Positions 55,960 through 63,033 of a DNA stretch of 64,000 bases are shown one piece after another; the first letter of the stretch is position 1, and the number at the start of each line of letters is the position of its first letter. Position numbers and translations under genes: made by a program. The notes below the pieces were generated by a model that saw nothing but the letters and a program-made list of their open reading frames with translations, searched no databases and was not told the DNA's origin. Source of the stretch: Bacteroidaceae bacterium (GTDB lineage Bacteria > Bacteroidota > Bacteroidia > Bacteroidales > Bacteroidaceae); assembly GCA_017470525.1 (NCBI GenBank), contig JAFUYM010000021.1:1-64000 (forward strand). Direction: 5' to 3'.

Positions 55960-57084
55960 TCAGTGGCGTTGCCTTCTGACTGACACGCGGGGGGCTCCGT
56001 TGCCTCCACCTGAATTGCCGCTGGACTTGCCGCTCTTGCCTGATGGGGAGGCGGAGGAACTGCGGCGGCTTGTGCGGGCGGCTGATGAGGAAGCAGAATC
56101 GGCACTCTTCACTTTCCTGCCTTTTGACGATGAGGCAGCGATGGAGTCAAGTCTTGCCTGTTCCACGGAGTCGACAGGTTCTTTCCAGATATGTTCTTCA
56201 AAGTCAGTTATTTCCTTTTCGATACGCTTCTGCTCTTTCTTCAGGAGTGAGTCGGTGGCGCAATACTGCTGCAGGGACTTGTTCTGCATGTTGGTGGTCA
56301 TGTAGATTTCACCCTTATAGTGGTTGGTGGAGAAGAAGTCGTCCATCGACATACGGGCAGCGTTGTTAAGGTTGCTTGTCATCACGTCCTGACCACTAAG
56401 ATAGGTCTTGATGTCGTCGTACTTCACCCAGAAAAGAGGGAACTTCTGTACGTTCTGGTTCCGTGCCTCATCTTCTCCGTCTTCACTCACCGTCTCTCGA
56501 ACGGCAAACTCATCGGCTGCACGATGCAGCACTGGGCAAAGTGCCACGATGCGGCTATGATAAGTTGCCGTGTTTTGGTCATAGTAACTGCTTTCCTTCA
56601 CGTAGTAACTAAGCACGTCGGCAGAGGGGATGTCGGCCTGCTCCACCTTGATGCCATTGCCCTCCACCTCGTAGAAAATGCCCTGACGTTCCAGCATATC
56701 CTTAAAGTGCATGCGGTTGCTCTGCTGGAAGTTCTCGACACCATCCAACTGATAATCGTAGGCAGGAATCTTGCCCGTATTGAGCAGTTTGAACAGGAGG
56801 GTGAAAAGGTTCATGCTATTCCCTTGTGGCTCCACTGGATAGTAGAGTGCTGCGTTCTCGTCCTTGGTCAGGTCGATGGAACGGTAGATGTCACGACGCC
56901 AGCTGGGGTCTTCTGGCACATCTACAGCCGTTGGAAACATGAGGCTGGCGCGCCCCTGTCCTGCAGCCGTTGAGGTGTTCTTGGCTGTAGTGGTGCGGGC
57001 ATTCTGCACACGACTCTTCTGTGGCTGAGCATTGAGCACACCCACCATACAGAGTGATAACAATATGAATAATACCTTTTTCAT
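55960..57084 (-). CDS. gldN: GldN, T9SS periplasmic ring protein
   Basis: A 374-residue periplasmic protein (PorN in P. gingivalis) that, with lipoprotein GldK, forms the large outer-membrane-associated ring of the type IX secretion system. Signal peptide: KKVLFILLSLCMVGVLNAQ. Family features: WRRDIYRSIDLTKDENAALYYPVEP, MNLFTLLFKLLNTGKIPAYDYQLDG, and VKYDDIKTYLSGQDVMTSNLNNA. The last ~55 residues are low-complexity Ser/Gly/Arg, longer than in typical GldN. It is the last gene of the operon. A ~163-bp repeat element separates it from gldM. Confidence 0.92.
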   Translation of the reverse strand: MKKVLFILLSLCMVGVLNAQPQKSRVQNARTTTAKNTSTAAGQGRASLMFPTAVDVPEDPSWRRDIYRSIDLTKDENAALYYPVEPQGNSMNLFTLLFKLLNTGKIPAYDYQLDGVENFQQSNRMHFKDMLERQGIFYEVEGNGIKVEQADIPSADVLSYYVKESSYYDQNTATYHSRIVALCPVLHRAADEFAVRETVSEDGEDEARNQNVQKFPLFWVKYDDIKTYLSGQDVMTSNLNNAARMSMDDFFSTNHYKGEIYMTTNMQNKSLQQYCATDSLLKKEQKRIEKEITDFEEHIWKEPVDSVEQARLDSIAASSSKGRKVKSADSASSSAARTSRRSSSASPSGKSGKSSGNSGGGNGAPRVSVRRQRH

Positions 57085-57095
57085 AATTTAAAAAT

Positions 57096-57258
57096 AGACC
57101 CTCTCTGTCCTTCGGACATCTCCCCCGTAATGGGGAGAGCCATCCGGCAAGGTTCTAACGAGGTTTTTTTGTTATATATTCTTTTTCTTATTGATACATT
57201 TCCCAACACCCCGCATGGTCTCCCTCCCCATTATGGGGGAGGGTCGGGGAGAGGGTCT
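57096..57258. mobile_element. MITE-like element, copy 1 (gldN-gldM gap)
   Basis: A 163-bp non-coding element bounded by AGACCCTCTC and, at the other end, GAGAGGGTCT (perfect terminal inverted repeat). Inside are a hairpin half TCTCCCCCGTAATGGGGAGA and, at the other side, CTCCCTCCCCATTATGGGGG. It shares both halves with 59848-60013 at high identity, while the A/T-rich centre is more diverged. No transposase is encoded, so it would be mobilised in trans, or be a REP-type repeat. Confidence 0.75.
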
Positions 57259-57264
57259 TCTTCT

Positions 57265-58827
57265 TTAATTGATGATAACTTCCACTGGAGTTTTCAAAGT
57301 TCGTTCGATGCCATCAGGACCTATAACGCGGATTTCACTGATGTTGAAAAGTTTGCCTCTCGTGAGGGAACGGATACGGGCTAACTGATTCGGCGTGAAG
57401 GTAGCAGAGTTGCTGACCTCTGGCACCACATTACCCATATTATCAACGAAGCGCGTCTGGAAGCCAAGCACTCGGAAAGAGATATTCAGCAGTCCGTCGT
57501 CAATGGCGGCTCCGATACCTCCCGCTGCCACAATGGCTTGCTTGGAAATGCGTCCGCCCTTGAATCGGGTAACATTACCTTTGGAGTCTGCGTATTCGAG
57601 ATAGCCCGTCGGGTCAGGCAGTTTACGCACATTGAACGTGAACTTGCCCATCTCCTGCTGGCGGCCTTCGTTCTGGGCTGTGACCGTGAAGGTGACAGCA
57701 TTCTCACCGATATTCGTCGGCACAGCAATATAGTTGCCGCCATCCTTCTTGGTAAGGGTTCCATTCGTCATGGAGAGGCTAATCTTATTGCTGGGCACTC
57801 CTGGCACACTGACACTGATGGGGTTCTGATAACCTGCATACAGCATATTCATCATCGTCGCACTCACTGTTGCCGATGGTTCCACGACGGTATAAGGTTG
57901 TGCAAATTCACGCCGGATGGTCTCACCATTACCATTCTTCATCACCAGATAACCCTTCAGTGTGAAGTCACCTGTTGAATTACAGATAGTCTCATAGCGC
58001 CCATTCTCCGACTTCAAAAGTGTATTGCCCACATAAATCTCTGGACGCTGAGTGGAATCGACCGCCGCCATGATGATTTGAGCGGAGAACTTACCGCCTC
58101 GCACCACCGTTTGTGCGGTAGGAATGACATAGGCATTGATTTGGTTCACACGCACATCTTTCACGTCGATGTTTGCCACCAACTGGTGCAACATCTCGCC
58201 TTCTGCATGGCGCACATCCGTCTGGAGTTTCGTGAGCAACGTGATTGCAGCAGCCACAGGCGTGTTCTCAAACATATACTCCTGCCAATTCTTGCCTTGC
58301 AACTTCGCCTTCTGAGGCACTTCGGTCGTCAAGTTCGACTTGATGATGTCCTTTTGCTTCTCATCGTTAATCATCGAAGTGATGCCATCACGATAAGTTT
58401 CAATGGCTTTCTTGAGTTTTCCACCTTTCCCTATGCCTGGAGCCAGCATCACATGAGTAGCCGCCTCCAGATTGTCACGCCCTTTAATATCGTTCAGGTC
58501 AGCATCCTTACCATCAGCCTCGCGCACAATCTCCCACTTCAGGTTCTCGGCAAGGGTATAGAGTGAGTCAGACATTTTACGAACCTGCTGTGCCTTCTCA
58601 TACCACTGGCGAGTCTTCTCCGGATTCTGCTTCATGGCAGCCTCCATCTCCTTGTAGATTGCCTCGTTCTGAGTGGTCGAGTTGACCTTCGTGCGGTTCA
58701 GTCCTTCGTCCACGAGCGAGAAGCCTTCGAGCACATCCGATGACACGTTGAGTGCCAACATTGCCATCAGCACAACGTACATCAGATTAATCATCTTCTG
58801 TCGTGGAGAGAGTTTTTTTCTAATCAT
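57265..58827 (-). CDS. gldM: GldM, T9SS motor periplasmic shaft
   Basis: 520 residues, the usual length. One N-terminal TM helix (MINLMYVVLMAMLALNVSSDVLEGF) anchors it in the inner membrane with GldL. Four periplasmic domains follow (PIGLxxK-type segments such as KLKKAIETYRDGITSMI, NKISLSMTNGTL, SFRVLGFQTRFVDNMGNV). With GldL it forms the proton-driven rotary motor that powers T9SS export and gliding-type movement. It lies in the canonical order after gldL. Confidence 0.95.
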   Translation of the reverse strand: MIRKKLSPRQKMINLMYVVLMAMLALNVSSDVLEGFSLVDEGLNRTKVNSTTQNEAIYKEMEAAMKQNPEKTRQWYEKAQQVRKMSDSLYTLAENLKWEIVREADGKDADLNDIKGRDNLEAATHVMLAPGIGKGGKLKKAIETYRDGITSMINDEKQKDIIKSNLTTEVPQKAKLQGKNWQEYMFENTPVAAAITLLTKLQTDVRHAEGEMLHQLVANIDVKDVRVNQINAYVIPTAQTVVRGGKFSAQIIMAAVDSTQRPEIYVGNTLLKSENGRYETICNSTGDFTLKGYLVMKNGNGETIRREFAQPYTVVEPSATVSATMMNMLYAGYQNPISVSVPGVPSNKISLSMTNGTLTKKDGGNYIAVPTNIGENAVTFTVTAQNEGRQQEMGKFTFNVRKLPDPTGYLEYADSKGNVTRFKGGRISKQAIVAAGGIGAAIDDGLLNISFRVLGFQTRFVDNMGNVVPEVSNSATFTPNQLARIRSLTRGKLFNISEIRVIGPDGIERTLKTPVEVIIN

Positions 58828-59013: not shown

Positions 59014-59193
59014 TTACGCTATCTTCATTTTGAGTGCTTCAACCATCTTGGCATAAACCTCATTCAGTTCTTGCAACTGAACAGCGAGTTTCTTCGTCTG
59101 CTCGTTCACCTCATCGATGGTAGCCGACTGGGTGCCGACGCTCTTCAGTTGCATCTCGTAGAAGCGGTTGATGCCTGTGAGGGTGCGGTTCAT
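59014..59193 (-). pseudogene. Detached C-terminal segment of GldL
   Basis: In the same frame as gldL and directly after its internal TAG, 61 further codons follow before a TAA at 59014-59016. They read NMNRTLTGINRFYEMQLKSV, then a heptad-rich stretch ending LNEVYAKMVEALKMKIA, which is the conserved coiled-coil end of normal GldL proteins. An ATG lies 3 bases after the TAG (59193), preceded by GAGGA at 14-18 nt, so re-initiation as a separate 59-residue peptide is possible. The reading frame is otherwise undamaged. Confidence 0.75.
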
Positions 59194-59196
59194 GTT

Positions 59197-59841
59197 CTAC
59201 ATTTCCTCGGAGTCGCGGGTGAGACGGGCACTCTGCTCTGCCACCTTCTTGAGGGTGTCGGTCAGTTCTGCCAACTGCTCCACATAAGCCTTCGTTGCTT
59301 CCTGCATTTCAGGAGCCATACCCTTGAACTGAGCGGAATTGAAGACTGGTGCAGAAGAAATGTTGGCTGCCAACTCTGCGGCATCCACAGGTTCGCCCTC
59401 TGCCACAGCAGGGCCTGACCCACCACCATTGATGACAATCGTACCACCGCCAGGCACTCCGCCACCGCCAACAATAACAGCGCCACCACCGCCACCAGCA
59501 GGTGCATGTGCCGCTGCGTTGGCTGCACTTGCCAATGCTGCAGCCGTCTCTTCCGAGATGGAAGCATTCACCTGTGCAACGATATTTGCGTTCTCAACAG
59601 CCTCTTCTGCCAATTCCCTTGCATCCATACTCTCCTGTGGCTCGAAACCTGCCAAGAAGAACACGATGACTTCAGTACCCATACCCAAGAAGAGCATGAT
59701 GTCGGCACCTGCGATGTGGGTGAGTTTGAAGAGCGCACCTGCAATCACGACGGATGCACCCCAACTGTATGCATAGTTCAAGAAAGTCTGCCCCTTCTTG
59801 GTGCGGAGAAATCTCTGAATTGCATTATATTGTGTTGCCAT
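59197..59841 (-). CDS. gldL: GldL, T9SS motor stator, cut by in-frame TAG
   Basis: An inner-membrane protein of the T9SS motor. The start is ATG 59841 (MATQYNAIQRFLRTKKGQTF), because the longer frame to 59880 is encoded by a repeat element. Two TM helices lie about residues 18-60 (YAYSWGASVVIAGALFKLTH, LFLGMGTEVIVFFLAGF). The second contains the conserved Glu (TEV) that couples proton flow. A Gly-rich linker (about 105-140) follows, then a coiled-coil. The frame stops at TAG 59197-59199 after 214 residues, whereas a complete protein would have 275-276; the missing end is present downstream in frame. Either a true nonsense mutation, a split gene, readthrough or a base-calling error. gyrB uses TAG as a stop, so a reassigned code is unlikely. 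Confidence 0.9.
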   Translation of the reverse strand: MATQYNAIQRFLRTKKGQTFLNYAYSWGASVVIAGALFKLTHIAGADIMLFLGMGTEVIVFFLAGFEPQESMDARELAEEAVENANIVAQVNASISEETAAALASAANAAAHAPAGGGGGAVIVGGGGVPGGGTIVINGGGSGPAVAEGEPVDAAELAANISSAPVFNSAQFKGMAPEMQEATKAYVEQLAELTDTLKKVAEQSARLTRDSEEM

Positions 59842-59847
59842 AAATAA

Positions 59848-60013
59848 AGACCCTCTCTGTCCTTTGGACATCTCCCCCATAATGGGGAGAGCCGTTCGGC
59901 CAGTTTCTTATTGAGGGATGATTTTTAGAGTTATTTATTATTTGTATTTTTTTTGTCCCAAACACCCCGCATGGTCTCCCTCCTCATTACGGGGGAGGGT
60001 TGGGGAGAGGGTC
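59848..60013. mobile_element. MITE-like element, copy 2 (gldL-gldK gap)
   Basis: A 166-bp element with the same terminal inverted repeats (AGACCCTCTC … GAGAGGGTCT) and inner hairpin halves (TCTCCCCCATAATGGGGAGA, CTCCCTCCTCATTACGGGGG) as 57096-57258. It begins 7 bp upstream of the gldL start codon and so supplies the gldL translation-initiation region. Confidence 0.75.
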
Positions 60014-60022
60014 TCCTTCTTT

Positions 60023-61489
60023 TTACTTCTTTGCCTTTGAAGATGTTCCCACCTGCGACCTCACACATCGGAAGCCGATGAAAGAACGTCCTACATTCTG
60101 ATACTCATACGAACGCCATGCACTCTTGATGAAACTTTCGGGGTCTTTCCACGAGCCACCTCTCACGCTCTTCTTCTTCAGTGCGTATGGGTCTTCCTTG
60201 GCTGCGTTATAATTGAGTGTCGGGTTCATGTCGCTCATAGAAAGCACACCCGCCTCGGTATAGACTGTGTTGGTCCACTCCGCCACATTACCCGCCATGT
60301 CGTAGAGACCATTGGAATTGGCACTGTAAATACCCGTCTTCGACGTGATGAGGTTGCCATCCTTCGTGTAGTTTCCTCTGTCAGGCTTGAAGTTCGCATA
60401 GAAGCATCCCTTGTCGCTCGCCACGCCCTCTTGCTCCCAAGGCAGTTCGTTGCCATCCTTACCACGAGCGGCAAACTCCCACTCAGCCTCAGTCGGCAGA
60501 CGATACCGTTGCACAAACTTCGCCTGTGGTCCTAAACCTTTGATAAGGTAGTCGGTACGCCAGTTACAGAACGCATTGGCTTGTTCCCAATTGACACCCA
60601 CCACTGGATATTCATTAAAGTTGGAATGGGTGAAGTAGAGACGCATATACACCTCGTTCTCCGCATTCTGGAAATCGTTAATCCAACAGGTCGTATCGGG
60701 ATAAACATTCACAATATAGGTGTTCACGAAGTCCCACATGCTGCTTAGCGGACGCGTGATGGTTTTGCGATGAATCACACCATCATCATCCACATACGCC
60801 GTGTCCTTCGAAATCATCACCACCTCATTAGGGTCGTTCTCAAAGTCCGTGTTCAGATTGCGTTCCTCCAAAGGAGAAGCACCGAAACCACGGTCGCCAC
60901 CATTCTTCAGACGATACTTACGCTGGGCAGCCATCACATAGTCGAACACCTCATAGCGGTAATTCAACTGGCTCACATCCAGCATCTTCTCGCCCGTCAC
61001 AGGATGAGTCGTATAGACACTCTCCATTGCACGTTCCTGGTCTTCATCAGGATTGCGAGGCAAAGCCTTGTTCCAGTTCAGATGGGGAGTGACAGGCTCG
61101 CCATACTTGTCCTCCTCAATCTTGTACGTCTCGTCACCGCCCCATGCAGGGTCAGCCAGACGCTCACGAATGATGGAATCACGCACCCAATACACAAACT
61201 GACGATACATAGAGTTCGTCACCTCCTTCTCGTCCATCCAGAACGCATCCACACTGATGTCCCTTGTCGGCACATCTTTGCCCCACAGACTGTCCGTCTT
61301 CTCCGTACCCATCTTGAGGCTGCCACGCTTCACCAATACCATGCCATAGGGTGCAGGCTCCGACATCGACGTGCCGCTGACACCCGTCACCTCTCCACCC
61401 GAGGCATTCGCTCCTCCCTTACTCGAGAAGCAGGAAGCAACCGCCAAGGCGAAGACTGCCGTACATATAGCAAACAATATTTTTTTCAT
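60023..61489 (-). CDS. gldK: GldK, T9SS ring lipoprotein
   Basis: The ATG at 61489 gives 488 residues with a lipoprotein signal (KKILFAICTAVFALAVASC, lipid-modified Cys at the lipobox VASC). An ATG at 61525 would place extra residues before the signal. The body is the formylglycine-generating-enzyme/sulfatase-modifying fold used by GldK/PorK: GMVLVKRGSLKMGTEKTDSL, DAFWMDEKEVTNSMYRQFVYW, RLPTEAEWEFAARGKDGNELPW, YDMAGNVAEWTNTVY and SVRGGSWKD. With GldN it builds the periplasmic ring. It is separated from gldL by MITE-like copy 2. Confidence 0.95.
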   Translation of the reverse strand: MKKILFAICTAVFALAVASCFSSKGGANASGGEVTGVSGTSMSEPAPYGMVLVKRGSLKMGTEKTDSLWGKDVPTRDISVDAFWMDEKEVTNSMYRQFVYWVRDSIIRERLADPAWGGDETYKIEEDKYGEPVTPHLNWNKALPRNPDEDQERAMESVYTTHPVTGEKMLDVSQLNYRYEVFDYVMAAQRKYRLKNGGDRGFGASPLEERNLNTDFENDPNEVVMISKDTAYVDDDGVIHRKTITRPLSSMWDFVNTYIVNVYPDTTCWINDFQNAENEVYMRLYFTHSNFNEYPVVGVNWEQANAFCNWRTDYLIKGLGPQAKFVQRYRLPTEAEWEFAARGKDGNELPWEQEGVASDKGCFYANFKPDRGNYTKDGNLITSKTGIYSANSNGLYDMAGNVAEWTNTVYTEAGVLSMSDMNPTLNYNAAKEDPYALKKKSVRGGSWKDPESFIKSAWRSYEYQNVGRSFIGFRCVRSQVGTSSKAKK

Positions 61490-61567: not shown

Positions 61568-62509
61568 TCACAGCCATCTCACACTCTTATGTTTATTCCG
61601 CCCCTTCTTGAAGAGGTCAAGGTCTGTCTGATACCCCAACACCACCTCATGACTGCCGTTAATCAACCCCACCCCAGAAGTGTATAACTGGTAACTGTAA
61701 CCGAGGCAAATGCCGTGGAACACACCACCCGCAAGGACTGTCACCGACGTGTTGGGGCTATACCCCACACCACCATAGAACTTCTTCTCGTCACGTTCAT
61801 ACACCACTTTGCACTGCACATCCTCTCTCCACACATCCAAATCTGACTGCACCAAGAAAGAGGGTTGCAAAGATATTAACGAATTTTTGAACTTAATATT
61901 GTATCCACCCATCAAATAATACACACGTGGAATCGACACTTCGTTCGTTTCGCCCATCACGAGCGTGGGTGCCAAAAGATGTTGAGCCGACACACCCAAC
62001 CATGCCTTCGGATGGTAATAATACAATCCCGCACCCATGTCCACCTTACTGCCATCCAACTGTGCCGAAGGGAAAGCCGGGTCGCTGTTATCCTCCAGTT
62101 CCACACCGCTCTTATCCACCTTCTCACTCATCAGCGAGCCCAAGAAGCCCACAGCCAACTTGCCCCTTTTCCCCACCTTCAGGTTATAGGCATACTGAAC
62201 ACTGACACGCGTTGTCTTGAAAATGCTGTTGTCATCCGTCAAGAAACTGACACCCGCACCATGACGGGGACTCAGGAAATATACAGGCAAATCCGCCCCC
62301 ACATACATCGTCTGCGGCGCATCCTCATACCCCCCCATCTGCACCGAATACGTCGCCGCCACATTCAGTCTCCCATCCGTACCCGACACAGCAGGGTTAT
62401 AAAACGACTTCAGGGCTGTGAAGTCCGAAAACTGCACATCCCACTGTGCTCTCACTGCCGATACACCCACCGTCAGGAGAGCCGCCAACGCTATCACACG
62501 CCTGTTCAT
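61568..62509 (-). CDS. porP: PorP/SprF-family T9SS outer-membrane protein
   Basis: 313 residues from ATG 62509, with a signal peptide (RRVIALAALLTVGVSAVRAQ). After it comes the family opening WDVQFSDFTALKSFYNPAVSG, then a barrel of alternating strands (VSVQYAYNLKVGKRGKLAVGF, GAGLYYYHPKAWLGVSAQHL). PorP/SprF proteins are outer-membrane components of T9SS that help anchor or release cargo. It is the first gene of the operon porP-gldK-gldL-gldM-gldN. No convincing TAnnTTTG promoter was found upstream. Confidence 0.9.
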   Translation of the reverse strand: MNRRVIALAALLTVGVSAVRAQWDVQFSDFTALKSFYNPAVSGTDGRLNVAATYSVQMGGYEDAPQTMYVGADLPVYFLSPRHGAGVSFLTDDNSIFKTTRVSVQYAYNLKVGKRGKLAVGFLGSLMSEKVDKSGVELEDNSDPAFPSAQLDGSKVDMGAGLYYYHPKAWLGVSAQHLLAPTLVMGETNEVSIPRVYYLMGGYNIKFKNSLISLQPSFLVQSDLDVWREDVQCKVVYERDEKKFYGGVGYSPNTSVTVLAGGVFHGICLGYSYQLYTSGVGLINGSHEVVLGYQTDLDLFKKGRNKHKSVRWL

Positions 62510-63033
62510 CACTAATAATAACTCCATTTCCCGGCTTTTATTGTGCAACAGGAGGATTATTTTCTCAGAAAAAGGCTCTTCGTTCTTTTTCTGCTTTTGT
62601 TGGCTCTTTCATTTCTTTTCATGCCTGTCTATGGCAAAAAGAAACGGTGAAAGGAGCATTTTTTATATTTGACAAGTTCCTTCGGAACGATTGAACGGAT
62701 GAAGCGGATTTTTCGGATAATCTGTTTTCGTCCGCCGAAGGCGATAACCACACATGAATAGGACAAAATTATCTTTTCTCAAAAAGGGATGGAACAAGAA
62801 GAGATGAAAAGGTCGATTCCTTGAGTTTTTCTCAAAAAGAGTGTAATTGTTTTAATGATAAGTGATTGCAGAAAACCGGGCACTCAGCGCGAAATGACAG
62901 GCGCTGGGTGCTCGTAATTTTACACGCTGGGTGTGGCAAATGACATGCGCTGAGTGCGCGTATAGGAAGATATTGACATCGGGCCCTTCATGATGGCAGG
63001 TTGTTCGTTTGAACTCAAACCTTACGAATGGGC
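62510..63033. other. Intergenic region with hairpins and repeats
   Basis: No gene is supported. Two small hairpins, GTTCC-TTC-GGAAC (62676-62688) and CGCC-GAA-GGCG (62733-62743), border a CGGAT-rich stretch. A palindromic repeat cluster follows at 62880-62962. Short open frames here have no protein-like features. Confidence 0.5.
62880..62962. repeat. Palindromic repeat cluster (CGCTGGGTG family)
   Basis: GCACTCAGCGC (62880-62890) is the exact reverse complement of GCGCTGAGTGC (62947-62957), and nearly that of GCGCTGGGTGC (62901-62911). A direct repeat AAATGACAKGCGCTGRGTGC occurs at 62892 and 62938, and ACAC-GCTGG-GTGT lies between. The core resembles the tRNA-Glu terminator palindrome. Confidence 0.7.

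Follow-up and report, generated by a model that had tools for sequence, protein, structure and literature searches.

A single TAG codon interrupts an otherwise conserved gldL gene in a draft Bacteroidaceae genome and may be a wrong or minority base of the consensus

The type IX secretion system (T9SS) gene gldL is interrupted by one in-frame TAG in the window, a stretch of 64,000 nucleotides of a Bacteroidaceae contig, at a position where a glutamate codon stands in every relative's locus compared. We lean towards the view that a single base of the assembled consensus is wrong or stems from a minority variant, and that it has made a TAG out of a glutamate codon in an ordinary GldL/PorL gene. 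If so, all or most cells would make a normal full-length GldL and would have a normal T9SS, and the sequencing reads would be expected to carry a sense codon at the TAG site.

The minus-strand frame 59841..59014 spans 276 codons, as the earlier note had counted. It consists of 214 sense codons including the ATG, the TAG at 59199-59197 that breaks the complete reading frame, 60 sense codons and a TAA. The earlier note had given 61 codons behind the TAG; the frame does run unbroken to the TAA at 59016-59014, and the figure of 61 includes that TAA. The start at 59841 (MATQY) is common to the relatives and is the basis for the 214 codons; the alternative in-frame ATG at 59880, taken as the start in the program-made list of open reading frames (ORFs), gives 227 residues. 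NCBIfam family TIGR03513 (GldL/PorL) matches both pieces, which bears out the claim that a GldL C-terminal frame lies behind the stop. The first piece alone (E 2.7e-19, profile 2-54) reaches 70 bits and passes the cut-off of 68.3, and the tail (E 9.5e-8, profile 174-247 of 247) scores 32.2 bits, under the cut-off by itself. The Pfam search matched the first piece only (GldL_N PF22827, E 7.4e-21), with no match to the tail. This is the sole gldL match in the assembly and it is co-located with gldK, gldM and gldN, the context looked for in GldL/PorL. Judged by profile matches and gene order, the interrupted gene is identified as gldL. Its first piece holds what we take to be both membrane helices and the glutamate corresponding to E49 of F. 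johnsoniae. The ATG noticed earlier just behind the stop is present (59193-59191), one codon past the TAG and in the same frame, and it opens a 59-residue ORF with all but one residue of the tail. The features of the region are listed in Table 1.

Table 1. Features of the gldL region (positions in the window)
Feature	Position	Strand	Evidence
gldN/porN, intact	55960..57084	-	TIGR03523 E 1.9e-65
gldM/porM, intact	57265..58827	-	TIGR03517 E 9.4e-167
TAA, normal gldL end	59014..59016	-	reading frame
gldL tail, 60 sense codons	59017..59196	-	TIGR03513 profile 174-247; 43 invariant columns, no departure
ATG, candidate re-initiation site; Met in 64/66 relatives' loci	59191..59193	-	ORF list, codon comparison
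In-frame TAG; glutamate codon in relatives (66/66 loci)	59197..59199	-	codon comparison
5' part of gldL (214 codons): membrane part, most of the cytoplasmic region	59200..59841	-	TIGR03513, GldL_N PF22827
gldK/porK, intact	60023..61489	-	TIGR03525 E 1.8e-152
porP/sprF-type gene, intact	61568..62524	-	TIGR03519 E 3.6e-65

No further stop was found in the T9SS genes examined, namely gldK, gldM, gldN, porP and the genes for SprA and PorX, both of which are encoded in the genome. Twelve C-terminal domain (CTD, Por_Secre_tail) matches lie over the cut-off. One of the 13 CTD matches, under the cut-off, contains an internal TAA (contig 44, 95956-96120, minus strand). Decay of the whole system was considered and rejected, as the T9SS genes examined are stop-free save for that one match. 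The intergenic gaps also contain near-palindromic CTCCCCATTATGGGGGAG-like elements, at 57120-57137 and 57220-57241 between gldM and gldN and at 59872-59889 and 59976-59997 between gldK and gldL. These are four sites at no more than three mismatches, against 0.02 expected from shuffles. An inverted-repeat search of 59820-60060, in the gldK/gldL gap, reported none, although the near-palindromic elements are present there.

The codon at the TAG position was read at 67 gldL loci, the window's own TAG included. As a finding against its reading, the earlier note had named a sense codon in the reads or in related genomes, with a consensus error here. A glutamate codon is present in 66 of the 66 relatives' loci and a stop in none; 29 of these loci come from one genome set and 37 from named genomes among the matches listed, and the two sets share genomes, as the matching coordinates of L004/L036 and L002/L043 show; the independent loci thus number fewer than 66. 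One kind of glutamate codon accounts for 61 of the loci and the other for five. The methionine behind the TAG is kept in 64 of the 66; leucine replaces it in L063 and L064, which are the most distant loci. By this comparison, the methionine is to be regarded as an inherited part of the protein, and the ATG would not have arisen for a role in restarting translation. A gldL match was found in 59 of the 61 genomes searched (this genome included), among them all 36 same-genus relatives. At least 37 named contigs carry a related gldL; their titles refer to Bacteroidaceae, Prevotellaceae or Bacteroidales that are uncultured or metagenome-assembled. Rumen, reticulum, omasum, caecum or faeces appear in several titles among the matches listed, and the DNA of the window may come from a similar gut habitat.

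The tail is 89.7-98.3% identical to all 29 of 29 same-genus loci. It is therefore not a chance frame, and the description of an intact tail holds. Compared with the five closest matches, it differs by 17-24 synonymous and one or two amino-acid codon changes. Invariance was assessed from the best alignment to each of the 29 same-genus loci. A column was counted if 15 or more loci were aligned there, and the TAG codon itself was left out; for the loci listed, the alignments took in 441-486 of 488 codons in gldK and 405-439 of 520 in gldM. The invariant columns number 293 in gldK, 75 in the gldL body, 43 in the gldL tail and 228 in gldM, and the window agrees at every one of these 639. No damage beyond the TAG is therefore seen in the gldK-gldL-gldM block, in agreement with the earlier statement that a single codon is affected. 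The absence of departures and the mostly synonymous changes argue that the tail was under strong selection until very recently.

A second lesion of the same type occurs in dnaK, on contig 29 (L133, 514-516, minus strand), where an in-frame TAG about 0.5 kb from the contig end is followed by 126 in-frame codons. A profile search found this one TAG in the dnaK of the genome and no stop in any other row. The position is glutamate in 26 of 26 relatives compared; 29 relatives' loci were considered, 26 of which gave a match to the tail and three were without it. Two clear internal-stop cases, gldL and dnaK, came out of ab initio scanning of 1.44 Mb; among 101 candidates they rank one and two by coding score just past the stop. 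On visual inspection, the other 99 of the 101, and the other 13 of the 15 candidates from a further scan, were put down as gene junctions or shadow frames. A strong codon bias makes a gene easier to pick up in these scans, and weaker genes could hide further stops. Alignment of genes from two relatives (58 and 63 alignments; 24,595 and 21,861 aligned codons) brought up no internal stop, leaving aside any within eight positions of an alignment end. Internal stops were absent as well from the whole-genome matches to SusC (28, of which 13 over the cut-off) and to the ABC-transporter domain (35, of which 31 over the cut-off). An ab initio scan of two control relatives (0.4 Mb each) gave no clear case. 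In relative G035, a short minus-strand ORF pair at L197:13015 is split by a TAA and looks coding on both sides; it is possibly an interrupted small gene. A generally poor assembly was dismissed, as only gldL and dnaK stand out in the 1.44 Mb scans, the 121 gene alignments and the two family scans.

The genome is a draft of 3.24 Mb in 83 contigs and is 83.49% complete. The sampled part holds two near-identical overlapping contig pairs with one mismatch each: contig 56 (L162) repeats contig 3 (L108:1525-10465), and contig 44 (L150:17443-20000) repeats contig 52 (L158:1-2558). Over these duplicated stretches (11,499 bases), there are two differences in total, neither of them more than 25 bases from a contig end. 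The gldL TAG, at 59.2 kb of a 71,028-base contig, is away from the contig ends.

Two ordinary explanations come into question. For a consensus error or an unfixed variant speak the glutamate codon in all 66 relatives' loci (37 among the matches listed, partly from the same genomes), the unaltered invariant columns, the draft state with its redundant contig pairs, and the stop-free SprA and PorX beside 12 CTD matches over the cut-off. The dnaK TAG, likewise at a conserved glutamate, points the same way. Assembly errors are also reported to lie behind many putative pseudogenes (Cooley and Wright 2024, PMC11017572). Against it, the TAG is in mid-contig, two clear internal stops in 1.44 Mb do not indicate a generally poor assembly, and the differences between duplicate contigs sit only near contig ends, so that contig-body errors are not demonstrated in the 11,499 bases. 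Alternatively, the sampled strain may carry a real and very recent nonsense mutation, and would then make a 214-residue GldL with the membrane part and without the conserved cytoplasmic tail. Secretion would probably be impaired or lost, perhaps with weak rescue through re-initiation at the ATG one codon downstream. This reading is a serious possibility, although we hold it to be the less probable of the two. The TAG is in the consensus, in mid-contig and in the sole gldL match, and a very young mutation would equally leave a conserved and undecayed tail. Moreover, in two-hybrid assays with P. gingivalis PorL, PorX binding depends on residues close to the PorL C-terminus (PMC5005315), and PorX is encoded here. 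On the other side, the T9SS genes examined show no decay, and the same type of lesion in dnaK suggests a technical cause; one CTD match below the cut-off contains a TAA. An adaptive loss is hard to see in dnaK, and a disabling stop in a main chaperone is unlikely to be tolerated; it is for this reason that the consensus error or unfixed variant is favoured over a real mutation.

The remaining explanations keep the TAG as part of a working gene, and the new kind of GldL that the earlier note had envisaged, split or read through, is not supported. It is extremely unlikely that GldL functions in two pieces, with translation of a separate tail starting at the ATG just past the TAG. The ATG is in frame, one codon past the stop, and covers the tail minus one residue, and a weak GAGG stands 11 bases ahead of it. 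However, a methionine is present there in 64 of the 66 intact relatives' loci (37 of the 66 among the matches listed), no longer Shine-Dalgarno motif than this 4-base one was found among the motifs tried, and a split gene occurs in no relative examined. Programmed recoding with a conserved stop fails on the absence of a stop from all 66 relatives' loci compared (37 among the matches listed). As for natural amber suppression or partial readthrough, some TAG codons would be decoded as an amino acid, e.g., glutamate, giving full-length GldL and DnaK. Both clear internal stops are indeed TAG at conserved glutamate codons. With the genome's own codon use, glutamate to TAG makes up 6-9% of the single-base routes to a stop; two random nonsense events would fall in the same class in 6-8% of cases and would both be glutamate to TAG in 0.3-0.8%, values which are post hoc and refer to two events, and the coincidence is a weak signal. 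Nevertheless, release factor RF1 is present without a stop, and in the part of the genome sampled TAG is the terminator of 84 out of 549 strong ORFs. The check for suppressor tRNA genes proposed in the earlier note gave no CTA anticodon among 36 tRNA hits read by ARAGORN in this 83%-complete genome, where about one-sixth may be missing. On these three grounds a recoding of TAG was discarded. The anticodon 'tag' of a tRNA-Leu (L090) was set aside as a suppressor since it reads a leucine codon. In addition, the sequence contexts of the two TAGs are unlike each other, and internal stops are absent from 46,456 aligned codons (121 gene alignments). Suppression is thus very unlikely, and only the faintest chance is left to its special form, in which UAG would be partly decoded as glutamate or read through in some conserved genes, gldL and dnaK among them, and serve as a normal terminator elsewhere.

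The window's gldL tail aligns with the 309-residue PorL chain 7sat at 209-239 and, with weak support through an intact relative, at 259-285. The latter just reaches the hydrophobic patch 279-298 described in PMC5005315, if chain numbering is taken as PorL numbering. PorX binding was lost in two-hybrid assays when the PorL cytoplasmic domain ended at 274 (PMC5005315), and in F. johnsoniae, too, PorX interacts with the cytoplasmic domain of GldL (PMC10951265). When gldL is deleted there, substrates are no longer released from the translocon (PMC10994853), and adhesion to glass failed in cells carrying GldL E49A (PMC8986121). A review reports the proposal that an unidentified cytoskeletal protein anchors GldL by way of the long cytoplasmic tail (PMC9389320). 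Neither the literature listings nor the available text of these five sources describes a deletion of just this GldL tail; the PorL deletion in PMC5005315 is close to the C-terminus. A real truncation would be likely to impair secretion, and the strain would then offer a natural test of the need for the conserved tail. Should the TAG be an error, the case would show that one internal stop is no ground for reading the loss of a secretion system into an uncultured genome.

Compared with known systems, the gene clearly resembles the T9SS motor protein GldL/PorL. Both pieces match TIGR03513, the gene order is gldK-gldL-gldM-gldN, and the solved chains 7sat, 7sau, 6ys8, 7sax and 7saz all match the first piece, 7sat being matched by the tail as well. 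It differs from GldL/PorL in the in-frame TAG 60 codons short of the normal end, which occurs in no relative examined. As the assembly is a draft and the gene is conserved except for a one-codon lesion, it is similar to the artefactual internal-stop pseudogenes described by Cooley and Wright (2024, PMC11017572).
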